A stretch of DNA of 64,000 nt from Bifidobacterium merycicum DSM 6492 (GTDB lineage: Bacteria; Actinomycetota; Actinomycetes; Actinomycetales; Bifidobacteriaceae), in assembly GCF_900129045.1 (NCBI RefSeq), contig NZ_FQTX01000002.1, forward strand, positions 248,001-312,000. Reading direction: 5' to 3'. This document shows positions 6,190 to 62,268 of this stretch, one piece after another. Both the position numbers and the translations under genes were made by a program. The notes below the pieces were generated by a model that was given only the letters and a program-made list of their open reading frames with translations, was not told where the DNA came from and searched no databases. How positions within the stretch are numbered: the stretch's first letter is position 1; each line of letters starts with the position of its first letter.

Positions 6190-8454
6190 TCAGTTTTCCG
6201 GCTTCAAGAATACCGCAGCGAGCGCAGGGACGGTGATTCGTGCGGAAGCGGGGCGGGAATGGTATTCGCCCGCGTCCGCTTCGAACGTGCCGTTCGAAAT
6301 GCCGGAACCGCCGTACACGGTGGAATCCGTGGTGAGTACTTCCTTCCAACGTCCGCCGTGGGGGAGTGCGACCTGATAGTCGGACCATGCCTCGCCGGAG
6401 AAGTTCACCACCACGACGCATTCCTCGCCCTTCGTGCCGATGCGCACGAAGCTCAGGGTGTTGTGGTCGGCGTCGTCGCTGGTGAGCCATTGGAAACCGT
6501 CGGGGGTGAAGTCTTGGCTCCAGATGGCCGGTGTTTCCTTATACAGCTTGTTCAGGTCGGCCACGAGACGCTGCACGCCCATGTGCTCCTGCCAGTTCAG
6601 GCAATCCCAGTCGATGGAGTTGTCGTGATCCCATTCGCCCCACTGCGCGAGCTCGTTGCCCATGAAGGTGAGTTTCTTGCCCGGGTGTGCCCACTGGTAG
6701 GCGAACAGGGCGCGCACGCCGGCGTACTTCTGCCAGTTGTCGCCCGGCATCTTGCCGAACAGCGAACCCTTGCCGTACACGACCTCGTCATGGCTGATCG
6801 GCAGCACGTAACGCTCGGAGTAGGCATACACCATGGAGAAGGTGATCTCGTCGTGATGCCACTTGCGGTTGATCGGCGTCTCATGCAGGTACTGGAGCGT
6901 ATCGTGCATCCAGCCCATGTTCCACTTGAGGCCGAATCCCACGCCGCCAGCGTCGGTCGGAGCGGTGATGCCCGGGTAGGCGGTGGATTCCTCGGCGATC
7001 ATCATGATGCCGGGGTTGTTCTTGTACGCGGTGGCGTTGGCTTCCTTGAGGAAGTCGATGGCCTCCAGATTCTCACGGCCGCCGTAGATGTTCGGATGCC
7101 ACTGGCCGGGCTTGCGGCTGTAGTCGAGGTAGAGCATGGAGCTCACGGCGTCGACGCGCAGGCCGTCCATGTGGTATTCGTCCAGCCAGAAGCCGGCGTC
7201 GGCGACGAGGAAGTTGCGCACCTCGTGCCTGCCGAAGTTGAAGATGTACGTGCCCCAGTCCGGGTGTTCGCCGCGGGTCGGGTCCGGATCCTCGTACAGC
7301 GGGGTGCCGTCGAATCGGCCGAGAGCGAAATCATCCTTCGGGAAGTGCGCGGGGACCCAGTCCATGATGACGCCGATGCCGGCTTCATGCAGCTTCTCGA
7401 CCAAGTATTTGAAGTCGTCCGGACCGCCCAGTCGGGAATCGACCGCGTAATAGCCGGTGACCTGATAGCCCCAGGAGCCGGTGAACGGGTATTCGGCCAG
7501 CGGCATGAACTCGACGTGGGTGAAGCCCATCTTCTGCACGTAGGGCACGAGCTTGTCGGCGAGTTCGCGGTAGTTGTTCACGTCCTTGCGCCAGCTCAGC
7601 GCGTTGAGCTCGTAGATCGCGACAGGGCCGTTGTGCGGATCGGTGGCGGCGCGGCGGGCCATCCACTCTTCGTCATGCCACTCATGCTTGGAATCCACCA
7701 CGATCGATCCGGTCGCCGGCGGAATCTCGTGGGAACGCTCCATGGGGTCGGCCTTGTCGATCCACTCCCAATTGGCGTTGAGGATCTGGTATTTGTACAC
7801 GTCGCCGGCCTTGGCGCCCGGGACGAACAGCTCCCACACGCCGGAGGAGCCGAGCGCGCGCATTGCGTGGCAGCGGCCATTCCAGCCGTTGAAGCTGCCG
7901 ATCACACGCACCGCGTGCGCGTTCGGCGCCCATACGGCGAAGGAGACGCCGGTGACCTTCTCGCCCGGTGTGCCGTCCACGCCGCCCATCGGATCCTCAT
8001 ATTCACGTACATGCGCACCCAAGGCATCCCACAGACGTTCGTGGCGGCCCTCGCCGAACAGGTACATGTCCATTTCGCCGACGGTCGGCAGATAACGGTA
8101 CGGATCGTCCTGAACGGTTTCGGGAACGCCGTCGTACGCGACCTTCACACGGTAGTCCGGCACGGAATACCCGCCGTCCTCGTTGACGGTGGAGGGGATG
8201 ACCGCGACGAAAACTCCGTTGAACTCGTGCGTTGCCGCGTATTCGCCGGCCTGCGTGACGATGGTGACCGTCTTCGCAAACGGGCGCAAAACGCGGACCG
8301 TGGTGTACTTGGCATTCTCGCCTTCGGCGAGGTGACCGCCCAGAATGGCGTGAGGGTTGTAGAAAGCAGTGTTGCTTACCTGATCAAGGTCGCCCTGGTT
8401 AACCGGGACGGCAACGATATCGTCATTGATGTTCGTATTAGTGCTCATGTTCAT
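6190..8454 (-). CDS. glgB: 1,4-alpha-glucan (glycogen) branching enzyme
   Basis: About 754 residues, GH13 family, which transfers alpha-1,4 chains to alpha-1,6 positions in glycogen. An N-terminal beta-rich region with an additional CBM48 module (ending around FNGWNGR) precedes the catalytic barrel. Visible family signatures are the nucleophile segment [13 protein letters not shown], the acid/base segment [11 protein letters not shown] and the third acidic residue in [13 protein letters not shown]. The start is put at the ATG pair 8454/8448 (MNMSTNTN); an upstream in-frame extension has no support and overlaps the divergent carD promoter. Together with glgX at 39.6 kb it supports active glycogen metabolism. 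Confidence 0.95.
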
Positions 8455-13428: not shown

Positions 13429-14616
13429 CTAGTTCTTACCGTCGCCGGTAGTGCCGTCGCTCTTCGTATTGGCCTCGTTGTTGCCGCTCGCGCCGGTATC
13501 GCCGGAACCCGAGCACTTCCTGCTCTTGCCGCTCTTGGCGGAATCACCGGCGTCCTTTGAATCCGAAGCGCTACCCGAAGCGTCACCCGAGCCGGCATCC
13601 TTCGCATCGTCGCTCTTCGAATCGCCATCCGAATCGGCGTCAGACTCCGAACCGTCCGAACCGTCGCCATCCTCCACAGCACACCCGAACTCCGGGTCAA
13701 CCGCCGTGGCAATACCATCAACCAACGCCGAAATCCAGTCAGTCAACGACTCATACTCCTTCGGCATCTGCTCACTCACATCCACCACCGGCACCTCCGC
13801 CTTACGCGCGGTACCCGTCAACATATTCGTCGCATCCGAAGCCTCCTGCGGATTATTCACTAACATGGAAGCCTTCTTGCCCTCCAACAACTCCTGGAAC
13901 TCCTGCAAATCACCCGGCGCGACCTCGCCGCCGTTCATCACCGCCTGCAGATACCCCTGAGGAGTCACATCCTTCAACCCCATATCAGACATCAGATAAT
14001 ACGCAACCGACTCAGTCGCCGCATACGCAGCCTTCCCATGCCCCTCCGCGAACTTCCGCATCGTCTCATCCAACGCCTTCTCCTGCTGCTGCCACTGCTT
14101 CAACCGCTTCTTGAACGCAGCCTTCTTCGCAGGGCGTGCCTTCGAAAACGCCGCCGTCAACTCCTGCGCCATACTCGAACGGGCGTCCTTCGAAAACCAC
14201 AGATGCGGATCGTCGCCTTTCGTCGCTCCCACGGTCTGCCCAGCTGAAACCACCGTCACATTACGAGACAACGACTTCGTAGCCCACGAATCATAATCCG
14301 CGCCATTGGCCACCACGATCTCCGCCTTACCCAACGCCCGCAAATCCGATGTCTTCGGCTCAAAATCATGCGCATCCACACCAGTCGACGCCAAAACCGA
14401 CGTCACCCTCACATCATCGCCGCCGATCTGCGCAGCCAACGACCCCCACTGGTTGATCGACGACACCACCGTAATCACACCAGTCTTCTCCACCACCTTA
14501 GGCTGAGGATCCGTGGTAGTGCGCCGATTGCCGAAACCACATGCAGCGCTCGCCAGCAGCACTGCGGAGGCGAGCAGTATTGCGGCCCCCTTGCGTATTG
14601 CGCGATTCGTTTGCAT
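13429..14616 (-). CDS. Metal ABC transporter substrate-binding lipoprotein (ZnuA type)
   Basis: A 395-residue lipoprotein. The signal peptide ends in the lipobox ASAAC (about residues 19-23). Cluster A-I solute-binding features follow: INQWGSLAAQIGG, the metal-site segment VDAHDFEPKTSD and DDPHLWFS (histidine ligands). The last 85 residues are a serine/aspartate/glycine-rich low-complexity tail (repeated DGDSKSDDAKDAGSG-like runs), an unusual addition that may span the cell wall or bind cations. AAAGGCGG precedes the ATG at 14616. It lies 0.8 kb upstream of the ATPase and permease on the same strand. Confidence 0.9.
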   Translation of the reverse strand: MQTNRAIRKGAAILLASAVLLASAACGFGNRRTTTDPQPKVVEKTGVITVVSSINQWGSLAAQIGGDDVRVTSVLASTGVDAHDFEPKTSDLRALGKAEIVVANGADYDSWATKSLSRNVTVVSAGQTVGATKGDDPHLWFSKDARSSMAQELTAAFSKARPAKKAAFKKRLKQWQQQEKALDETMRKFAEGHGKAAYAATESVAYYLMSDMGLKDVTPQGYLQAVMNGGEVAPGDLQEFQELLEGKKASMLVNNPQEASDATNMLTGTARKAEVPVVDVSEQMPKEYESLTDWISALVDGIATAVDPEFGCAVEDGDGSDGSESDADSDGDSKSDDAKDAGSGDASGSASDSKDAGDSAKSGKSRKCSGSGDTGASGNNEANTKSDGTTGDGKN

Positions 14617-53043: not shown

Positions 53044-53408
53044 AGCATCCGGTATGCGAGCGTCTATGTGGGCGAGTCTGTGCACAAAACATACAAGTTG
53101 TCCATGATTCTTTGACAACTGATGGAAGGCTTGGAATTTAGGGGAATCAACGAGAGAACCATATCCGGGTGTGGTAATCGGTATCGATTGTCGCGTACCG
53201 AACATGCTGTTGGCCGACGTGATGGATGTGTGCGTGGATGCAGCCGAGGTGCTGCGCGAGCACATGCTGGAGGACTGACCTTGCGGAAGGGAGAGGGAAG
53301 AGGCAGGAATTAGCGGGAGGTTGCTCCGTGTTTGTACGGTTTTGTACCGGAAAATACTTCAGGAACGGGTCAAACCGTTCGAAACGCCTTTGTTCCCAAC
53401 GGTTTTCG
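53044..53408. other. Degraded stretch before tRNA-Pro
   Basis: About 365 bases between dinD and the tRNA. One frame (GTG 53171 to TGA 53278) gives a clean 35-residue end, VVIGIDCRVPNMLLADVMDV, that looks like the C-terminus of a lost gene. Nothing else is supported. No second copy of the tRNA end was noticed that would mark an attachment site. Confidence 0.4.
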
Positions 53409-53482
53409 TCGGGCTGACAGGATTTGAACCTGCGACATTCTGCTCCCAAAGCAGACGCGCTACCAAGCTGCGCTACAGCCCG
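53409..53482 (-). tRNA. tRNA-Pro (TGG)
   Basis: On the minus strand 74 bases fold as a cloverleaf: acceptor CGGGCTG/CAGCCCG, D-loop with TTGGTAGC, anticodon loop TTTGGGA (anticodon TGG), T-arm with GGTTCAAATCC, discriminator A. CCA is not encoded. It marks the edge of the decaying accessory region at 49-53 kb. Confidence 0.92.
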
Positions 53483-53514
53483 TTGCAAAAAGCAACATCA
53501 GCCATTGTACATGA

Positions 53515-53632
53515 GCACCCGACCCAACCACGACGCACGACACCCAAACCCACACCACACAAACCACCACAACACCACGCCCAAACCAACCACCCACCAC
53601 GAAAACCACCAACCCCCACGACAAACACACTG
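53515..53632 (+). other. G-poor, CA-rich leader upstream of the TetM-like gene
   Basis: Over roughly 115 bases the plus strand is almost all C and A with very few G and T (runs such as ACCACCACAAC). As RNA it would be unstructured and C-rich, like a Rho-loading site, or it could be a purine/pyrimidine-biased spacer. TAGGGT at 53635-53640 next to the start could be a -10 box. Confidence 0.4.
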
Positions 53633-53646
53633 GTAGGGTAAACACC

Positions 53647-55788
53647 ATGAAGCGCATCGTAACCGGAATCCTCGCACACGTCGACGCAGGCAAAACCACA
53701 CTCTCCGAAGCCCTCCTCTACAAAACCGGACAACTGCGCAAACCAGGCCGCGTCGACCATGGCGACGCCTTCCTTGACACCAACACCATGGAACGCGCCC
53801 GCGGCATCACCATCTTCACCGAACCAGCCATCATCCACACCAACGACACCACCATCACCCTCCTCGACACCCCAGGCCACGTCGACTTCTCCGCCGAAAC
53901 CGAACGCACCATACGCGCCCTCGACTACGCCGTCTTCGTCATCTCCGCCACCGACGGCATCCAAGGCCACACCGAAACTCTCTGGCGACTCCTCACACGT
54001 TACAACGTGCCAACCATCCTCTTCGTCAACAAAATGGATGCACCAGGCGCCAACGCAACCACCATCCTCAACCAACTCCAACACCGCTTCCACGACGCCT
54101 GCATCGACTTCACCAACCCCGCGCTCGCCGACACCATGGAAAGCATCGCCATGCAGTCGGAACAGGCCATGGACGAATATCTCGACACGGGAACCGTGAA
54201 CACCGCCACCATCCGCAACATGATTGAACGGCGTGAACTGTTCCCATGCTTTTTCGGATCCGCGCTCAAAATGGAAGGCATCGACGAATTCATCCACGGC
54301 TTCGCGACATACACGCAGGAACCGCAGTACGCCGACGAATTCGGTGCCCGTATTTACAAGATCTCCCACGATGCCCAAGGCAACCGCCTGACATGGTTGA
54401 AAGTGACCGGCGGGGAACTGCACGCGAAGACAATGCTGAACGGCGGCAGCGGTGAACTGGCCTGGAACGAGAAGGCCGACCAAATCAGAGTCTATTCCGG
54501 CGCGAAATACTCCACGGTCGGATCCGTCCCCGCGGGAACAGTATGCGCGGTGACCGGCCTGACCCGCACCTTCCCCGGCGAAGGCTTGGGATTCGAACAG
54601 TCGGCAGAAAACCCGATCCTGCAACCCGTCCTCACCTACACGCTGCTGCCCGGTGGCAATGACACCCACAAATGCCTGCTCGCCTTGCGTGAACTGGAAG
54701 ACGAAGACCCGCTGCTGCACGTCGTATGGCATGCGCGCCTGCAGGAAATCCACCTGCAGCTCATGGGAGCCGTGCAACTCGAGATCATCCAGCAGATGAT
54801 GCATGACCGGTTCGGTTTGGACGTTGAATTCGGCCCCGGCGCGATTCTGTACAAGGAAACCATCACGGAACCGGTCGAAGGCGTGGGGCATTACGAACCG
54901 TTGCGCCACTATGCCGAAGCCCATGTTCTGCTTGAACCGTTGCCGGCCGGCAGTGGTATGCAATACGCGACTGATTGCAGTGAGGACATCCTCGACCGCA
55001 ACTGGCAACGACTCATCCTCTCGCATTTCCAGGAACGCGAACACCTCGGCGTGCTCACCGGCTCACCCATCACCGATATCAGACTCACGCTGCTCACCGG
55101 GCGTGCACACCTGAAGCATACGGAGGGCGGTGATTTCAGACAGGCAACCTACCGGGCGATCCGACAAGGGCTCATGGAAGCACGTGCCGGTGTACCAGAT
55201 GAGACAGGAGCGTTCGATGTCGCGCAACGATTCGCGGGCGACGGCGACGATCACGACATCGAAACCGCTGACATCGACAGTATCGGCAGCGCCGATGCCG
55301 ATAGCATCGATAACATTGGCGAAACACCGCAATGCCGCATCCAAGGCATGGGCAACTGCCGTCTGCTGGAACCTTGGTATCGGTTCCGTCTGGAAGTCCC
55401 GCAAGACATGCTCGGACGCGCCATGAGCGACATCCAACGCATGAGCGGCGAATTCGACCCGCCGCAGAACGACGCCGACGGCGAATACGCCGTACTGAAC
55501 GGTACCGCGCCGGTCAGCGAAATGCGCGACTACGCCATGGATGTGAACGCCTACACGCACGGACGTGGCCATCTCGGCTGCACATTCGCGGGATACCGTC
55601 CCTGCCATGACGCCGAAACCATTATCAAGCAAGCGAACTACAATCCCGAATCCGATCTCGACCACACCACGGACTCCGTACTCTGCGCGCACGGTGCAGG
55701 TTATCCGGTGAAATGGTACAAGGTGCCCGAATTCATGCATCTGGACTACGCATGGGACGGCATGAGCTCACCTGATCAGCGCTCTTGA
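53647..55788 (+). CDS. EF-G-like translational GTPase, TetM-type
   Basis: 713 residues with the domain order of EF-G and the ribosomal-protection proteins. GTP-binding motifs are AHVDAGKTTLSEALL (G1), RGITIFTEP (G2), LLDTPGHVDF (G3), FVNKMD (G4) and FGSALKMEG (G5). Domain II and the C-terminal domains IV and V follow. An acidic insert (about 535-560, TADIDSIGSADADSIDNIG) in domain IV is unusual; there the resistance proteins normally carry the loops that contact the drug site. It looks like a chromosomal paralogue rather than an acquired tet gene. Tetracycline protection cannot be asserted. Confidence 0.8.
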   Translation: MKRIVTGILAHVDAGKTTLSEALLYKTGQLRKPGRVDHGDAFLDTNTMERARGITIFTEPAIIHTNDTTITLLDTPGHVDFSAETERTIRALDYAVFVISATDGIQGHTETLWRLLTRYNVPTILFVNKMDAPGANATTILNQLQHRFHDACIDFTNPALADTMESIAMQSEQAMDEYLDTGTVNTATIRNMIERRELFPCFFGSALKMEGIDEFIHGFATYTQEPQYADEFGARIYKISHDAQGNRLTWLKVTGGELHAKTMLNGGSGELAWNEKADQIRVYSGAKYSTVGSVPAGTVCAVTGLTRTFPGEGLGFEQSAENPILQPVLTYTLLPGGNDTHKCLLALRELEDEDPLLHVVWHARLQEIHLQLMGAVQLEIIQQMMHDRFGLDVEFGPGAILYKETITEPVEGVGHYEPLRHYAEAHVLLEPLPAGSGMQYATDCSEDILDRNWQRLILSHFQEREHLGVLTGSPITDIRLTLLTGRAHLKHTEGGDFRQATYRAIRQGLMEARAGVPDETGAFDVAQRFAGDGDDHDIETADIDSIGSADADSIDNIGETPQCRIQGMGNCRLLEPWYRFRLEVPQDMLGRAMSDIQRMSGEFDPPQNDADGEYAVLNGTAPVSEMRDYAMDVNAYTHGRGHLGCTFAGYRPCHDAETIIKQANYNPESDLDHTTDSVLCAHGAGYPVKWYKVPEFMHLDYAWDGMSSPDQRS

Positions 55789-55942
55789 GTAGTGAGAAAA
55801 ACCGGACGTTTATCGCACGCAGGCAATAAGGTGAAACGCAGCCGAACCGTGGCATGCTGGGCGGCGCTTTACGCCTGAAACACCTGACACCGTGCCACGG
55901 CGCAACACGCGACATTTACGACAACAGACAGAGGAAACACCC

Positions 55943-57277
55943 ATGAGCGAAACCACCGCCACCGTCTGGCCCGCGCCCACGGCCGCCAAGCCGCTCGACG
56001 CCACCGTCGAAATCCCCGGCAGCAAATCCCTGTCGAACCGTTACCTCATCCTCGCCGCACTTGGCGGCACTCCCATCACCCTTACGGGTCTGCTGCGATC
56101 CCGCGACACCGACCTCATGATGGACGCGCTTACGGCGCTTGGCGTCAGCTGCGACATCGACCCTCATGTTCCCACCACCGTGCGCGTCACCCCGCCCGCG
56201 ACGGGTCGGTTCACCGGCAACACCAGCGTCTACTGCGGTCTGGCGGGCACCGTCATGCGTTTCGTCCCCGGCCTCGCGTTGTTCGCGGACGGTCCGGTTC
56301 GGTTCGACGGCGACCGTCAGGCGTACGCGCGTCCTATGAAGCCCGTGCTCGACGGCTTGGAACAGCTCGGCGCGACCGTCGAATACCACGGCGAAACCGG
56401 CGGACTGCCCTTCACTATCACGTCGCCCGCCGAACTTGTGACAGAGCGCTGTGGCGTCACCATCGACTCCTCCGGCTCCTCCCAGTTCATCTCCGGACTG
56501 CTGCTGATCGCCTCCCGTCTGCCGGGCGGCATGACGCTCACGCATGTGGGCGGGAAGACCCCGAGCCTGCCGCATATCCGCATGACCGTCGCCGACGTGA
56601 CCGCGGCCGGTGGCAGCATCACCGCCGACGAGAATGCACATACGTGGACTGTTGAGCCGCGCCCGCTGCAGCTGCCCGAACACATCACCGTGGAACCCGA
56701 TTTGTCGAACGCGGCCCCGTTCTTGGGTGCGGCGCTGATTGCGGGCGGTACCGTGCGCGTGCCGAACTGGCCGGAAACCACCACGCAGCCGGGCGGACTG
56801 CTGCCCGGATACTTGGAACGCATGGGTGCGAAGGTGACGTTCTCCGTGGAGAACGGTGTGCGCTACTGCAATGTGACCGGTGGGGACGTGATTCATGGTC
56901 TGGGTGATTTCGACCTGACCGCCGCGGGTGAGATTGCGCCTTCGCTGGCCGCGATTCTGGTGTTCGCGGACGCACCGACCAACATGATCGGTATCGGGCA
57001 TCTGCGCGGGCATGAGACGAACCGTCTGGAAGCGTTGGTCAACGAGATCACGCGCGTCGGGGGAAAGGCTTGCGAACTGGCGGACGGCATCCGTATCGAA
57101 CCGGTGGCGGAGGCCGCGTTGCACGGTGCCGAAATGGAAACGTATGCGGATCATCGTATGGCGACCTTCGCGGCGATGCTCGGCCTGCGCATCGACGGCG
57201 TGACCGTGCGCGACGTGGAGACCACGCGCAAGACGCTGCCCGACTTCGTGGGCATGTGGACCGGCATGCTGGGCTGA
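55943..57277 (+). CDS. aroA: 3-phosphoshikimate 1-carboxyvinyltransferase (EPSP synthase)
   Basis: 444 residues; adds enolpyruvate from PEP to shikimate 3-phosphate. Substrate-binding GSKSLSNRYLILAALGG, GLAGTVMRF, SSGSSQFISG and PDLSNAAPFLGAAL are intact, and YADHRMATFAAMLGL closes the active site. The usual Arg-containing segment near 115 reads GDRQAYARPM, a small departure. GAGGAA lies 7 bases before ATG 55943. Confidence 0.95.
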   Translation: MSETTATVWPAPTAAKPLDATVEIPGSKSLSNRYLILAALGGTPITLTGLLRSRDTDLMMDALTALGVSCDIDPHVPTTVRVTPPATGRFTGNTSVYCGLAGTVMRFVPGLALFADGPVRFDGDRQAYARPMKPVLDGLEQLGATVEYHGETGGLPFTITSPAELVTERCGVTIDSSGSSQFISGLLLIASRLPGGMTLTHVGGKTPSLPHIRMTVADVTAAGGSITADENAHTWTVEPRPLQLPEHITVEPDLSNAAPFLGAALIAGGTVRVPNWPETTTQPGGLLPGYLERMGAKVTFSVENGVRYCNVTGGDVIHGLGDFDLTAAGEIAPSLAAILVFADAPTNMIGIGHLRGHETNRLEALVNEITRVGGKACELADGIRIEPVAEAALHGAEMETYADHRMATFAAMLGLRIDGVTVRDVETTRKTLPDFVGMWTGMLG

Positions 57278-57322
57278 TATATCTGATACATCGGCTGGCT
57301 CGGCTGGTTCGCTTATTGCGAT

Positions 57323-57372
57323 CGGTGCCCGCTACTCCGCGGCTGTGAACGGCTACGGAGCAGCGGGCACCG
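57323..57372 (+). terminator. Hairpin after aroA
   Basis: CGGTGCCCGCT and AGCGGGCACCG with an inner CTCCG/CGGAG segment and one mismatch form a long GC-rich stem. No T-run follows. The remaining gap to 57575 shows no gene. Confidence 0.6.
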
Positions 57373-57575
57373 TCATACGGGTGTCGCCGTATCGCTGATG
57401 TCCGCATAGTGGTCTCGACATGTGAAACGCTGAATGCCATGGAACCTTGCAACGGCGCAATCGTTCCCTCGCGGTAACCAAGGCACAATAATGTGCCGTC
57501 CTTACAAACCGGGGCCACGGTGATACGGTGAAGCCAAAGTCGGTGGGAACGCCGGTACGGAGAAAGAGGTGCGGC

Positions 57576-58430
57576 ATGAATCAGGATGAGCGCAGGCGAC
57601 TGCTGCTTCAAGGCCTGCTGGACGAGCGTCGGTCCTGGATGGGCGATGATTCCGCTGATGACGCTTCGGGCATCAGCATCCCGAACGATCCGGACCAGCA
57701 GCGCATACTGCTGCGCGCCCTGATGAACGTGCGCGAGCCGTACCCCGTCGACGAACGTCTTCTGCGCATTCAAGACGACTATCTGCATGCGGAAACCGCA
57801 GTCAAAGGCATCACCGACATCGCCGATCTCACACCGATCCGGACGGTGCCGAGTGCCGGGACGCAGACGGAACTCTACCTTTGGCAAGGTGACATCACGA
57901 CACTCAGGTGTGATGCCATCGTCAACGCGGCGAACAGCGGCATGACCGGCTGTTACGCGCCGAACCACCGGTGCATCGACAATGCGATCCACACCTATGC
58001 CGGCATGGAACTGCGGTTGGCGTGCGCGGAACTGATGGAACGGCAAGGGTACCCGGAGCCGACCGGGCAGGCGAAGATCTCGCCGGCGTTCAACCTGCCG
58101 TGCCGATACGTGCTGCACACGATCGGACCAATCGTGGACGGGCGCGTGACCGCCGAGCACGATCGGCTGTTGGCATCCTGCTACCGTTCCTGCCTGAGGC
58201 TGGCGGCGGAACATGGGTTGGAAAGCGTGGTGTTCTGCTGCATCTCGACCGGCGAATTCCATTTCCCCAACGAGCGGGCGGCAGCAATCGCCATACATAC
58301 CGTTGAGGAATTCACGGCAGAACGAACCAGCGTGAGGAAAGTGGTGTTCAATGTTTTCAAGGATACGGATTACGAAATCTACGAACGGCTGCTCCGAACC
58401 GAGCGATCAGCCGACCGGCCAACCGGCTGA
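57576..58430 (+). CDS. Zinc-containing macrodomain (protein ADP-ribose hydrolase)
   Basis: 284 residues: an N-terminal helical part of about 95 residues, then a macrodomain beginning LYLWQGDITTL. The loop IVNAANSGMTG is followed by GCYAPNHRCIDNAIH, whose Cys126, His131 and Cys133 match the zinc ligands of Zn-macrodomains that reverse SirTM-catalysed ADP-ribosylation. CCISTGEFHFPNERAA is the second phosphate loop. A possible GAGG lies before ATG 57576. The gene directly precedes a class M sirtuin, the known partnership. Confidence 0.9.
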   Translation: MNQDERRRLLLQGLLDERRSWMGDDSADDASGISIPNDPDQQRILLRALMNVREPYPVDERLLRIQDDYLHAETAVKGITDIADLTPIRTVPSAGTQTELYLWQGDITTLRCDAIVNAANSGMTGCYAPNHRCIDNAIHTYAGMELRLACAELMERQGYPEPTGQAKISPAFNLPCRYVLHTIGPIVDGRVTAEHDRLLASCYRSCLRLAAEHGLESVVFCCISTGEFHFPNERAAAIAIHTVEEFTAERTSVRKVVFNVFKDTDYEIYERLLRTERSADRPTG

Positions 58431-58440
58431 CAAGCCGACC

Positions 58441-58472
58441 GGCAGATGGGCTGATCGGCAGATGGGCTGATC
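58441..58472. repeat. Two-copy 16-bp tandem repeat
   Basis: GGCAGATGGGCTGATC occurs twice in a row between the macrodomain stop and the sirtuin start, preceded by related GCCGACCGGC repeats. Confidence 0.7.
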
Positions 58473-58510
58473 GGCTTGGTTTGACCAACGGATTCGGCCG
58501 GAACGAGTCG

Positions 58511-59380
58511 ATGAATCGGTTTGAAGTGTCGAACGACCCTGATTTCGCCCTACGACTTGACCTGCTGAAAACGGCGTGGCATGAGGCCGACGCCGTGATC
58601 ATCGGTGCGGGATCGGGACTGTCCACGGCGGCGGGCTTCACCTATGCTGGCGAACGATTCGAACGGTACTTCTCCGATTTCGCCGCGACCTACGGCATTC
58701 GCGACATGTATTCGGGAGGCTTCTACCCGTTCGCCTCGCTGGAGGAATACTGGGCGTATTGGAGCCGATTCATAACCGTCAACCGCTACCACGACGTGCC
58801 GAAACCGGTGTACGCCGATCTGCTGAAACTCGTGGCGGGCAAGGACTATTTCGTCATCACGACCAATGTGGACCACTGCTTCCAGAAAGCTGGGTTCGCC
58901 CGCGAACGCCTGTTCTACACGCAGGGCGACTATAGCCTGTTCCAATGCAGCGTGCCATGCCGACAGGAAACCTTCGACAATGAGGCGGTTGTGCGGGCCA
59001 TGGTCGAACGGCAGGAACATATGCGGATTCCGACGGAACTCGTGCCATCCTGCCCGTACTGCGGCAGGCCCATGACGATGAACCTGCGTTGCGACGATAC
59101 GTTCGTGGAGGACGAAGGCTGGCATAAGGCCGCGGAACGATACGATGATTTCCTGCGCACACGAGTCCGCGCAGAGCGCAAGGTGCTGTTCCTGGAACTG
59201 GGTGTGGGCGGCAATACGCCCGTCATCATCAAATACCCGTTCTGGCAGATGACGGCGAGCAGCACCGACGCCGTCTACGCCTGCAGCAACCTGGGCGAGG
59301 CGAACTGCCCGGCCGACATCCGGCGGCAGTCCATCTGCATCAACGCGGACATCGGCGACGTGCTGGCGCGACTGCGGTAG
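58511..59380 (+). CDS. Class M sirtuin (SirTM), protein ADP-ribosyltransferase
   Basis: 289 residues with the NAD-binding start VIIGAGSGLSTAAGFTYAG. TTNVDHCFQKAG carries Asn119 and Asp121. The segment LFYTQGDYSLFQC has Gln138 where deacylase sirtuins have the catalytic histidine; in characterised SirTMs the equivalent Asn and Gln support ADP-ribosyl transfer. Zinc cysteines are seen in FQCSVPC and CPYCG. ATG 58511 is preferred over TTG 58481. It lies 80 bases after the macrodomain gene. Known SirTM operons also encode GcvH-L and a lipoate ligase as target and modifier; neither is present here. Confidence 0.9.
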   Translation: MNRFEVSNDPDFALRLDLLKTAWHEADAVIIGAGSGLSTAAGFTYAGERFERYFSDFAATYGIRDMYSGGFYPFASLEEYWAYWSRFITVNRYHDVPKPVYADLLKLVAGKDYFVITTNVDHCFQKAGFARERLFYTQGDYSLFQCSVPCRQETFDNEAVVRAMVERQEHMRIPTELVPSCPYCGRPMTMNLRCDDTFVEDEGWHKAAERYDDFLRTRVRAERKVLFLELGVGGNTPVIIKYPFWQMTASSTDAVYACSNLGEANCPADIRRQSICINADIGDVLARLR

Positions 59381-59403
59381 GGGAGAAGCGCTCTTCCATA
59401 TAC

Positions 59404-59453
59404 GTTGAGGCCCCTGTGCGGTTCAGTTTGCTGAACCGCACAGGGGCCTCAAC
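59404..59453 (+). terminator. Terminator after the sirtuin gene
   Basis: A perfect 23-bp stem (59404-59426 with 59431-59453) and TTTG loop end the sirtuin operon and coincide with the change to AT-rich foreign sequence. Confidence 0.8.
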
Positions 59454-59749
59454 ATCAGCGTTTGGTTACACGCTATGACATCTTCGCCAACAGGGCAATC
59501 ACTCGAACTCTACAACAGGACCCATTTCTTAAACAGTTTTGTTTAGAAGATATGTATTCCTGTTCTTCTGATTATTTGTGGTATCCATATTATCCTGAGT
59601 ATCACAGCTATTGTTATCAAAATGTTATCAGCCGTGATAACACGGGATTGTCCCCTGCGGATAATATCAATTGGCTTGGGTGTATTATAGCATCCAGAGG
59701 GGTAAATCTCAACATCCGATTTGATCCGGATGAGCGATTAAACTGAAAT
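59454..59749. other. AT-rich junction, no gene
   Basis: About 300 bases of low G+C marking the left edge of the foreign block. It contains the repeat at 59612-59631. An open plus-strand frame has no ribosome binding site and no family resemblance. Confidence 0.5.
59612..59631. repeat. Left copy of a 20-bp repeat flanking the AT-rich block
   Basis: TGTTATCAAAATGTTATCAG matches 61729-61748 at 19 of 20 positions in direct orientation. Each copy is itself two TGTTATCA units. The pair encloses the Firmicutes-like genes and could be a footprint of integration. Confidence 0.5.
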
Positions 59750-60139
59750 TTATCGAAGTTTCGCTTCAATTTCTTTATCTGGCCAATAGCCCCATGATTC
59801 AACAATCTTGCCGTCCACAACCCTAAAGTTCTCCAATGCCTCAAAGCTAATATGCTTTCCGGTAGCCGGTATTCCCATACAAGTTCCGGCATGAATACCC
59901 TGATAGAGAATTCTGGTTGCAACCATATCCTCCTCACCAAATACATCAAGCACCTCAATTTTCAGGTCAGAGAATTGTCCCTCCACAATTTTCAAGATGC
60001 CCACGGCATCAGCATTACTTCTTGCTCCGGCAGGACTGTGGTCTATGTAGTCCTCCGCCATACATTCCATGATAAAGTCGTAATTGTGATTGATATATCC
60101 TTCCACAAAAAAGTGACTTACCAGTTCTTTGTTATCCAT
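59750..60139 (-). CDS. SnoaL-like (NTF2-fold) protein
   Basis: A 129-residue protein of the SnoaL/ester-cyclase-like group. The helical start VSHFFVEGYINHNYDFIMEC leads to DYIDHSPAG, whose histidine-aspartate is typical, and the end has FRVVDGKIVESWGYWPD. These small cavity-forming proteins act in catalysis or binding of varied ligands; substrate is unknown. AAGGAGG precedes the ATG by 10 bases. Codon use is AT-rich like Clostridia, unlike the rest of the window. Last of a three-gene minus-strand run. Confidence 0.85.
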   Translation of the reverse strand: MDNKELVSHFFVEGYINHNYDFIMECMAEDYIDHSPAGARSNADAVGILKIVEGQFSDLKIEVLDVFGEEDMVATRILYQGIHAGTCMGIPATGKHISFEALENFRVVDGKIVESWGYWPDKEIEAKLR

Positions 60140-60204
60140 AACTGTTGTTCCTCCTTGTCGTTAAGATTTATATGTTTATTATCATTGTAGACGCAAATTC
60201 AAAT

Positions 60205-60381
60205 TTACTGCTGATTCTTCTTGCTTCTCCAATATAAAATTGCGGCTATACACAGTTCCAGTATTCCTATTGCCAGCCACACAATTCCCATGGCGATATT
60301 TCTGACCCATAAGAACCAGATCGCGGAACAAAGTATAAATGTTATTCCCAATATGATAAAAGTTTTGCCATTCGTTTTCAT
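60205..60381 (-). CDS. Small membrane protein, 58 residues
   Basis: Reading from ATG 60381 (AAGGAG 10 bases upstream) gives 58 residues ending at TAA 60205. It has two membrane helices (TFIILGITFILCSAIWFLWV and IVWLAIGILELCIAAILYW) joined by a short RNIAMG turn and a basic tail RSKKNQQ. It lies between the SnoaL-like and XRE genes on the same strand, 45 bases after the XRE stop. Helix pair and neighbours resemble small membrane proteins paired with XRE regulators in Lachnospiraceae, of unknown function. Confidence 0.75.
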   Translation of the reverse strand: MKTNGKTFIILGITFILCSAIWFLWVRNIAMGIVWLAIGILELCIAAILYWRSKKNQQ

Positions 60382-60426
60382 AACTCACATCTCCTTATCG
60401 TTACTCTTATGATTTGATTGCACAGA

Positions 60427-60921
60427 TCAAGCGTAAAGACAGTGTTCTACGTAAGCCATCATCTGATTATTCTGATAGCCATATTCAACAAGTGCCAACA
60501 GGGGGACAAGTCCGACAAGCCACGACCTGTCAAATACGAACGGCAGCACAGCGGCTGCAATTAGAAGAAGCCCAAGCAAAACAAACAGCGCTGTATGTTC
60601 TTTGCGCCATTTCTTTTTGAAATAAGCTTTTCTTTCCTCGAGGGAAAACGCGCTCGATTTGGAAACAGCGATGACATTTTCATCCGCCTTTTTCCTGAAT
60701 TCTTCATCCGATAGGAACTCGCCTGCCAGCAGCTCGTTAACGCTGACGTTCAGCTCTTTTGACAGCAGTTGGAGCATCTCAATGTCAGGCATATAATTTG
60801 CGTTTTCCCAGCGGGATACAGTCTTGTTGGTGACACCGAGTTTTTCGCCCAACGCCTCCTGTGTAAGGTTGTGCTGTTTACGTAGATAAGCGATAAATTT
60901 TCCTGTTTTAATCTGATCCAT
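60427..60921 (-). CDS. XRE-family regulator with C-terminal membrane helices
   Basis: 164 residues: an N-terminal helix-turn-helix (about 5-60, LRKQHNLTQEALGEKLGVTN followed by KTVSRWE) and a linker. A C-terminal membrane segment follows (about 110-150, ALFVLLGLLLIAAAVLPFVF, plus a second helix). Such membrane-tethered XRE regulators are common in Firmicutes. GGAGGTGA lies 5 bases before ATG 60921, a strong Firmicutes-type site. It heads the minus-strand group and probably regulates it. Confidence 0.88.
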   Translation of the reverse strand: MDQIKTGKFIAYLRKQHNLTQEALGEKLGVTNKTVSRWENANYMPDIEMLQLLSKELNVSVNELLAGEFLSDEEFRKKADENVIAVSKSSAFSLEERKAYFKKKWRKEHTALFVLLGLLLIAAAVLPFVFDRSWLVGLVPLLALVEYGYQNNQMMAYVEHCLYA

Positions 60922-61123
60922 GTTGTTCACCTCCGTAAACAATATATCCCTACCGGTGTGAGAACTCTTCCCCACAAACAGCGAATTCGCCAAATGACAC
61001 ATTGTTTTGAATCTTGCAGTTACAAATTCAAATTTATCATCTCTTGCAGTTTGTCAACTTCTTCCGGTGTTAGCTGGAGACTGCTCTTATAAATACAAAA
61101 TCCATGAACCAATAACTCTCCGT

Positions 61124-61249
61124 TTATATATGGATTGTTTCTATAAAGTCGCGAATAATTGCGTTGACTTTGTCCGGTTGATCGTCATTTGCATTATGCG
61201 CTGCCCCCTGAATCATGATGAGTGGAAAACCGGTGCGCTGCTCCCATCT
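61124..61249 (-). pseudogene. Alpha/beta hydrolase, C-terminal fragment
   Basis: The last 41 residues of a minus-strand frame, FPLIMIQGAAHNANDDQPDK then VNAIIRDFIETI, match the end of alpha/beta hydrolases, including the catalytic histidine region (GAAHNANDDQP). The rest of the enzyme is missing: upstream sequence belongs to another fragment on the other strand. Confidence 0.6.
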
Positions 61250-61308
61250 CTTGGGATGTTTCTCCCTCTGCGCTGGCAGTTCCCGATATAGACACCAATA
61301 TTGGCCTG

Positions 61309-61584
61309 ATGCATACATTGTTTGCCCTGGAAGATCTGAGAGGTCTTAAAGTAGGTCAGATTGACGGAGAGCTTTGCCTCCGACTCGACAAACACAAAGG
61401 TCTCGAATACATTTCCATGTTTGATATGCTTTCTGCCTGGTATGAGCAGGAAGAGAAGTACCGTAATGGTGAGATCACCAAGGAAGAGTACGACCAGTGG
61501 AGATACAACTATCCAAAGTATGACACCTATAGCCGCCGGGCAAAGGTTCCTTCTCAGGAGATTTCAGATCTGTTCACCAAGTAA
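61309..61584 (+). pseudogene. C-terminal fragment of an unrecognised Firmicutes-type gene
   Basis: The frame from about 61309 to TAA 61584 gives 91 well-formed residues (LEDLRGLKVGQIDGELCLRL; MLSAWYEQEEKYRNGEITKE; EEYDQWRYNYPKYD), acidic and helical with AT-rich codons. No ribosome binding site precedes it and the sequence before it belongs to the hydrolase fragment, so the 5' end is lost. It is followed by a good terminator, as for a real 3' end. It recalls proteins of clostridial mobile elements, but I cannot name it. Confidence 0.5.
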
Positions 61585-61602
61585 AACTCTATAGACGCAA
61601 AA

Positions 61603-61643
61603 AATCCCTTGCCGAGATTTCTCTCAGCAAGGGATTGCTTTTT
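61603..61643 (+). terminator. Rho-independent terminator
   Basis: AATCCCTTGC and GCAAGGGATT with an inner GAGA/TCTC pair, followed by GCTTTTTAAT. It serves the plus-strand fragment ending at 61584. Confidence 0.85.
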
Positions 61644-61925
61644 AATATGGATACCTTTCGAACACCTTTTGAAATCATTCTTTACTCCAAAACCACTTGG
61701 TACGAAGAATGATGCTCCTTCAGAGTTCTGTTATCAAATTGTTATCAGAAGAGATTTTCAAATTCAGAAACCCCAGTGTTTTTCAAGGCTTCCGGGCTTT
61801 TCGCTATTATTCCCACTCAATGATTCCCGCGCTTGCGGGAATTGCATTCTCGTATTGTTTCATATCGTCTCGTCTCACTCGTTGCTTCTCGTGCATGGTG
61901 AGTATTTACATTGTAGCCTAGTTGT
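61644..61925. other. Right edge of the foreign block, guaA-end-like segment
   Basis: No gene is supported. It contains the right copy of the 20-bp repeat (61729-61748) and, at 61807-61827, TTATTCCCACTCAATGATTCC. On the minus strand that reads ...IIEWE-stop, the conserved C-terminus of GMP synthase, a known integration target of genomic islands. Confidence 0.45.
61729..61748. repeat. Right copy of the flanking 20-bp repeat
   Basis: TGTTATCAAATTGTTATCAG, direct orientation, one mismatch to 59612-59631. Distance between copies is about 2.1 kb. Confidence 0.5.
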
Positions 61926-62165
61926 TGGAACTCACTTGGAACTCAGTCGGGTGAGTTCCAGTTGGAACTCACTTATGGGGAGTATTTTGCCCGACATGGG
62001 GAGTATTGCCCCTGACCTGCGGTTTTGCCGCTCCATCGTGATGGAGTGAGTTCCAGTCGGGTTTTCGGCCCTTCCGGCTGATATGGGGAGTATTGTTTTT
62101 CGACATGGGGAGTATTGCGGTTTACCTGCGGAAACGCCATCTTCTCCCCTAGCGGGTGAGTTCCA
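61926..62165. repeat. Iteron-like array of two motifs
   Basis: ATGGGGAGTATT occurs four times (61975, 61996, 62083, 62105), in pairs 21-22 bases apart. GTGAGTTCCA occurs three times forward (61951, 62046, 62156) and twice exactly in reverse (61926, 61963), plus once with one change (61937). The sites at 61951-61972 form a perfect palindrome. Two larger units of about 109 bases are evident. It is non-coding and ends about 100 bases before the nuclease-like gene. Confidence 0.8.
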
Positions 62166-62268
62166 ATCGATTGCGTGCAATGAATAGCAACACTTCAAGG
62201 ATCGCTCGCAAAGCTAATTGCAACGCATGATTGCTTGACGTGCCCGTCTTGCGAAGTCCAAAGGTAAA

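Follow-up and report, generated by a model that had tools for sequence, protein, structure and literature searches.

A minimal class M sirtuin and zinc-macrodomain pair in Bifidobacterium and the redox neighbourhoods of its relatives

Which protein does a class M sirtuin (SirTM) modify when its gene stands beside a zinc macrodomain (Zn-Macro) gene and no lipoyl carrier is encoded next to them? Lipoylated GcvH-L is the sole known SirTM target, and the targets of other SirTM/Zn-Macro systems are described as elusive in the available text of PMC11490716. The pair studied here lies in a window of 64 kb, the whole stretch of DNA that was analysed, which corresponds to bases 248001-312000 of contig C5 in a genome of 2.27 Mb and 15 contigs. 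It places the system in Bifidobacterium, a genus absent by name from the available main text of PMC4518038 and PMC11490716; Bifidobacterium together with macrodomain and sirtuin was not found in our literature search. We consider it probable (about 0.7) that the pair is a minimal lone SirTM/Zn-Macro operon, forming a reversible ADP-ribosylation switch with a non-lipoyl and most likely redox or electrophile-defence target.

Two adjacent enzymes and their locus

A sequence-only reading of this DNA had proposed adjacent SirTM and zinc-macrodomain genes, and both were confirmed at 57576-59380 as intact frames on the same strand. The features of the locus are as follows.

57324..57371, no strand: inverted repeat ggtgcccgct...agcgggcacc between aroA and the macrodomain gene, terminator-like and without a T run (found by eye, putative function)
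57576..58430, + strand: Zn-Macro gene, a MacroD-type zinc macrodomain with an N-terminal part, predicted (ADP-ribosyl)hydrolase (eraser)
57951..57974, + strand: zinc loop CYAPNHRC with Cys126 (57951), His131 (57966) and Cys133 (57972), from sequence
58511..59380, + strand: SirTM gene, class M sirtuin, predicted protein mono-ADP-ribosyltransferase (writer)
58865..58924, + strand: SirTM catalytic positions Asn119 (58865), Asp121 (58871) and Gln138 (58922), from sequence
59404..59453, no strand: long inverted repeat shortly 3' of the SirTM stop, terminator-like (found by eye, putative function)

The Zn-Macro gene starts at ATG 57576 (a GTG at 57528 would give a longer frame). Its product matched Macro PF01661 at E 1.8e-36 in a profile search and cleared the NCBIfam model NF003163, 'protein-ADP-ribose hydrolase', with 335 bits against a cut-off of 272. 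The top PDB relatives were, in order, 8RSI (E 3.4e-73), 5KIV (E 4.3e-66), 8RSL and 8RSM, all of them Zn-Macros, followed by the fungal fusion 8RSN. As in Zn-Macros, a C-H-C zinc loop replaces the glycine-rich catalytic loop. Of 84 related frames 80 retain this motif, and the remaining four are short and gapped there. The sequence together with this alignment confirms the residues Cys126, His131 and Cys133 named before.

The SirTM gene starts at ATG 58511, with TTG 58481 as an alternative, and with the ATG start the earlier numbering of Asn119, Asp121 and Gln138 is correct. Its product matches SpySirTM (5A3A) at E 2.7e-67. Across 119 aligned SirTM rows Asn119 and Asp121 are each invariant and Gln138 is kept in 117, the remaining two having Glu. 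Gln138 aligns opposite Gln137 of 5A3A, which according to the available text of PMC4518038 stands where other sirtuins have the catalytic His. The catalytic position is therefore predicted to be Gln and not His, as the earlier reading had held. This exchange (QG, not HG), the NAD-site Asn and Asp, the GVGx[NT]TP pyrophosphate motif, here GVGGNTP, and the adjoining macrodomain gene all argue for class M. In a fold comparison against the PDB only, an AlphaFold2 model of SirTM (pLDDT 88.0, pTM 0.86) ranked 5A3A first (E 2.2e-30, TM 0.88), with 8RSN, the fungal fusion of macrodomain and SirTM, second and deacylating sirtuins after it. Both enzymes are thus identified by homology, with the fold model as additional support for SirTM, and their activities are predicted.

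The gene order is consistent with a lone pair, with aroA on the 5' side. Since inverted repeats flank the pair on both sides, one towards aroA and one after SirTM, the two genes may be co-transcribed as one short unit, which may end at the repeat at 59404..59453. A phmmer search of the whole 64-kb window with GcvH, LplA, OYE and neighbour queries matched only the pair's own genes, which bears out the claim that no GcvH or LplA carrier gene accompanies the pair. Neither the GcvH-L gene nor the LplA2 gene of the extended lipoyl operon is present at the pair, and no HxlR, Rrf2, SDR, PNPOx or nitroreductase gene lies in the window.

Directly after the pair, the stretch 59381-62200 has a GC content of 0.44 compared to 0.59 window-wide and may have been recently acquired. 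It includes a SnoaL-like gene (59750-60139, - strand) and an XRE-type regulator gene (60427-61002, - strand). The SnoaL-like gene was rejected as a partner, having no homologue in the related loci that were scanned. Further upstream, a divergent EF-G-like gene (53647-55788, + strand), found at the same place in the congener G059, has ribosomal protection proteins as its best NCBIfam match, with 383 of 775 bits and far below the cut-off.

GcvH in the genome and among relatives of the pair

A GcvH-L/LplA2 module elsewhere in the genome had been named as a finding that would speak for a lipoyl target. One half of this holds: a GcvH gene and an LplA-like gene exist on a contig other than that of the pair, but the GcvH is canonical.

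C6:90945-91292 (gene in locus L003 at 13940-14350, - strand): GcvH, the genome's sole GCV_H match
C6:83878-84513 (in locus L003 at 6858-8117, - strand): LplA-like gene, 6.4 kb from GcvH

Glu24 and Asp27 are found in GcvH-L proteins, and SpyGcvH-L is without the C-terminal helix (PMC4518038, available text). Judged by its residues and matches, the genome's GcvH is canonical and not GcvH-L. In the PDB it is closest to the E. coli protein and other ordinary GcvHs (E 1e-28), with SpyGcvH-L 5A35 reaching 6e-6. It also clears the gcvH profile models, retains a C-terminal extension and carries Tyr in the column of Glu24. Moreover, neither GcvP nor a 2-oxoacid dehydrogenase E2 acyltransferase was found in the genome with queries that each gave matches in 10 of 14 controls. 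This GcvH therefore probably has no role in glycine cleavage. Full-length GcvH is common in the genus and may have another role there.

The pair could nevertheless act in trans on this orphan GcvH after its lipoylation by the LplA-like ligase. Apart from the presence of both genes and the probable lack of a glycine cleavage role, which has a parallel in S. pyogenes, likewise without a glycine cleavage system (PMC4518038, available text), the Glu at the Asp27 column is acidic as in GcvH-L. Furthermore, an OYE-type flavoenzyme gene (L003:1979-3343, - strand; NamA-like below the cut-off) is located some 3.5 kb away from the LplA-like gene, and OYE is likewise a component of lipoyl SirTM operons. 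The residues and the distribution of GcvH in the genus speak against it. In an alignment of 30 genus GcvHs, the best-scoring of 99 full-length ones with our own included, the Glu24 column is Tyr or Phe in all 30, and the Asp27 column is acidic in 19 and non-acidic in 11. Full-length GcvH occurs in 99 of 112 genus genomes (100 match, one of them partially), compared to SirTM in 18. Together with the scarcity of GcvH in the genomes of related SirTMs and the inactivity of a lone-pair Zn-Macro on GcvH-L, both described below, these points make action on GcvH in trans unlikely.

To see how usual the absence of a carrier is, we turned to the best 80 SirTM loci listed (at least 80 exist), which are mostly from Clostridia, with three labelled Treponema, and which comprise 3.3 to 16.9 kb of DNA each (median 13.1 kb). 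A macrodomain frame is present in 59 of them, and none of the 80 has a GcvH or LplA match within its stretch. In L153 and L157, which are extended operons, the same queries did recover GcvH-L and LplA2; with the Aerococcus versions of both proteins as queries the result was likewise 0 of the best 80 loci listed. Independent operons of SirTM and macrodomain have already been published (PMC4518038 and PMC11490716, available text). Given these and the 0 of the best 80 loci listed, the absence of GcvH-L is usual for this branch. The lack of GcvH-L to which the sequence-only reading had drawn attention is thus real and no anomaly, lone pairs being the published minimal operon in the available text. 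The pairs of Methanobrevibacter oralis, Enterococcus faecalis and Treponema pedis (PMC11490716, available text) consist of the same two adjacent enzymes, and like them the window's pair has no lipoyl carrier or ligase; its closest solved macrodomain is that of M. oralis, 8RSI. The window's copy differs in having no redox gene adjacent. With the extended SirTM operon of S. aureus, S. pyogenes and Aerococcus tenax (L153) the pair shares both enzymes and the same catalytic residues, whereas GcvH-L and LplA2 are absent from the window. The window's SirTM shares 41% identity with its counterparts in L153 and L157 and at most 72-73% (best segments) with those of the clostridial loci listed. Within the genus and phylum, some SirTMs of lone type (43-46%) are almost as distant from it as the lipoyl-operon ones.

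Among genomes from 50 of the best 80 loci listed, whose completeness was not given, only five have a full-length GcvH, 13 have short partial matches alone and 32 have none (PF01597). The short matches are perhaps biotin carriers, and genome incompleteness alone is unlikely to explain the 45 genomes without a full-length GcvH. One of the five full-length GcvHs sits, by eye, between gcvP- and gcvT-like frames. Because full-length GcvH is so rare in genomes that encode a related SirTM, we judge it unlikely that lone pairs generally act on GcvH. MorMacro, a Zn-Macro of a lone pair, also failed to demodify GcvH-L (PMC11490716, available text). The suggestion that the target differs from lipoylated GcvH-L is therefore favoured and probably correct, as no GcvH-L was found and genomes with related SirTMs are mostly without GcvH.

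A writer without an eraser was also observed: among the 58 listed loci that extend at least 2.5 kb upstream, 14 have a SirTM with no detectable macrodomain neighbour. Examples of such SirTM genes are L019, L037, L054, L059, L063 and L080.

Redox genes around related pairs

The redox neighbourhood of the relatives is the new and more interesting result, the lone pair itself being already a published type. Clustering of neighbours in the best 80 loci listed and eight plasmid or phage-collection loci gave five recurring kinds: HxlR regulators in divergent orientation, proteins that combine a PNPOx domain with 4Fe-4S ferredoxin motifs, nitroreductases, radical SAM/SPASM proteins and Cys-rich repeat peptides. 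On a Roseburia plasmid (L159), the radical SAM protein clears TIGR04340 (ACGX system) and the peptide clears TIGR04341 (ACGX-repeat peptide). The complete order HxlR (divergent)–ACGX–radical SAM–nitroreductase–PNPOx/ferredoxin–macro–SirTM occurs in nine clostridial loci among the matches listed. Frames, measured from stop to stop, overlap or abut in 54 of 57 cases for macro–SirTM, 14 of 21 for PNPOx/ferredoxin–macro, 6 of 11 for nitroreductase–PNPOx/ferredoxin, 9 of 13 for radical SAM–nitroreductase and 3 of 15 for ACGX–radical SAM, which suggests operons. The window's copy is homologous to this type of cluster (e.g. L159) in macro and SirTM, and the other five genes are absent from its vicinity. 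Nine congeneric loci have the order HxlR (divergent)–SDR–macro–SirTM, in which SDR and macro frames abut in one of nine, and a Treponema locus and an Enterococcus plasmid locus carry Rrf2, SDR or NAD(P)H-binding, and PNPOx genes.

Clusters of an ACGX peptide and a radical SAM gene ending in macro and SirTM were seen in L159, L006, L014, L028, L035, L036, L061, L071, L076 and L079; they link an uncharacterised peptide-modification system to ADP-ribosylation, and no description of such an ACGX-type macro–SirTM cluster of Clostridia was found in our literature search.

We counted HxlR, Rrf2, SDR, PNPOx, PNPOx-ferredoxin and nitroreductase genes within -5/+2 kb at loci with at least 2.5 kb upstream. 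This left 58 clostridial loci among the matches listed (22 of the best 80 dropped out for short flanks), 15 congeneric loci (two of 17 fetched regions dropped out, one for its flank and one for a weak SirTM) and 14 same-phylum loci, of which L211 and L212 fall outside the main SirTM branch. A regulator of the HxlR or Rrf2 type and/or redox enzymes were nearby in 40 of the 58 clostridial, 11 of the 15 congeneric and 9 of the 14 same-phylum loci, where the clostridial count is not independent because the queries were mostly derived from the same loci, and where some congeneric loci are near-copies. Counted on their own, redox enzymes were present in 26, 10 and 8 loci of the three sets, and HxlR or Rrf2 in 34, 10 and 8; loci without redox neighbours numbered 18, 4 and 5. 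The queries matched 0 of 65 control stretches of seven kb, taken from 33 of 40 contig starts (seven starts were shorter than 7 kb) of clostridial-set genomes only. Since the queries came from SirTM neighbourhoods, this rate is a minimum for how common the families are overall.

HxlR-family regulators sense electrophiles via an N-terminal Cys. Such a Cys is present in all 50 HxlR frames of SirTM loci (34 clostridial, 9 congeneric and 7 same-phylum), in a motif that is CPVxTT-like in 47, CPVAAT in two and CPYVT in one. The one HxlR that was tested resembles the redox regulators RrpB/RrpA, below the cut-off. The combination of HxlR and SDR is also seen in congeners that have no SirTM. In the window's own genome the HxlR query had no match, nor did the PNPOx-ferredoxin query in a search without a positive control. 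The SDR query gave a weak match alone (25%, E 8.6e-4), and SDR as an obligate target is judged unlikely for this genome.

The relatives' redox neighbours, the lipoyl operon's OYE and LLM enzymes, which also point to redox, and the oxidative-stress link reported in the available text of PMC4518038 together lead us to favour a redox or electrophile switch. SirTM would move ADP-ribose from NAD+ to a side chain of a specific protein as mono-ADP-ribose, and Zn-Macro would remove it again. The target would not be lipoylated GcvH-L and would be encoded elsewhere in the genome; judging from the neighbours of related pairs, a redox or electrophile-defence protein seems most likely. These neighbours provide a candidate list that makes the published question of the targets testable.

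A broader proposal, which we put forward tentatively and hold to be rather doubtful as a whole, is that redox switching, governed by a thiol-sensing HxlR (or Rrf2) regulator, is the basic function of SirTM/Zn-Macro systems. The modified protein would then usually be encoded close by: an NAD(P)-binding SDR, a PNPOx-ferredoxin protein, a nitroreductase, HxlR at its cysteine or the Cys-rich ACGX peptide. Cysteine might be the acceptor, given reports that Zn-Macros cleave Cys-ADP-ribose. On this view the lipoyl GcvH-L operon would represent a single specialised offshoot, and the pair in the window would be a copy that no longer has its target's gene in the operon.

Distribution, maintenance and other roles

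SirTM matches occur in 18 of 112 genus genomes, our own included, several of them partial or broken, and in a phylum sample in 20 of 396 genomes, again with our own and some of them weak. This patchiness could suggest an accessory pair without a present function, which was transferred in, severed from its old neighbours and is now decaying. Broken or partial SirTM copies are indeed seen in congeners, namely L177 (G038), L176 (G064) and L174 (G027), the last of which retains its SDR neighbour, and in 15 other genomes of the genus no pair was found in the 0.5-1.5 kb after aroA, with pieces of less than 130 bases in a few. However, the window's pair has intact frames and its catalytic residues, and it is shared, at 88% protein identity, with G059, in which the region corresponding to 53313-59504 lies at the same place with 85% DNA identity. 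Between the window and this nearest congener, dN/dS is 0.134 for SirTM (273 codons) and 0.195 for the macrodomain gene (274 codons), near the 0.137 of aroA (431 codons). With values of 0.13-0.20 so near that of aroA, the pair is maintained under purifying selection, and its decay is improbable.

In the SirTM tree, the window and G059 group together (100/100) amid mainly clostridial lone-type loci, the SirTMs of the two lipoyl operons branch off by themselves (100/100) and the congeneric group requires at least three changes on starred branches; with 119 rows, only two extended-operon rows, several long branches and an unsettled bootstrap, the deep placements are unsure.

Some Sir2-family proteins are defence effectors, which raises the idea of an anti-phage module of Sir2 type acting by NAD+ depletion or signalling. 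PADLOC returned no match for the macrodomain, and its one match for SirTM, to Dsr1, is at chance level (E 0.022), a result on which we judge a defence role of the pair unlikely. An eraser as partner would moreover sit badly with NAD+ depletion, and the relatives' neighbours are often redox genes. Such a module is the most improbable of the readings considered here, and a reversible switch on a redox or electrophile-defence protein remains our preferred one.

Carriage of the window's DNA on a plasmid or phage was rejected, as plasmid DNA of near identity was not found. Around 40 kb, the window does match plasmid-borne glgX genes in 44 records; Streptantibioticus, Nonomuraea and Streptomyces rank best, and 19 of the records are Rhizobium. 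SirTM relatives do occur in 31 plasmid records and three phage-collection records. One of the latter, L157 (OR849908.1), is labelled Staphylococcus phage and is probably host DNA; its operon has the order GcvH-L–macro–SirTM–LplA and is accompanied by an OYE frame.
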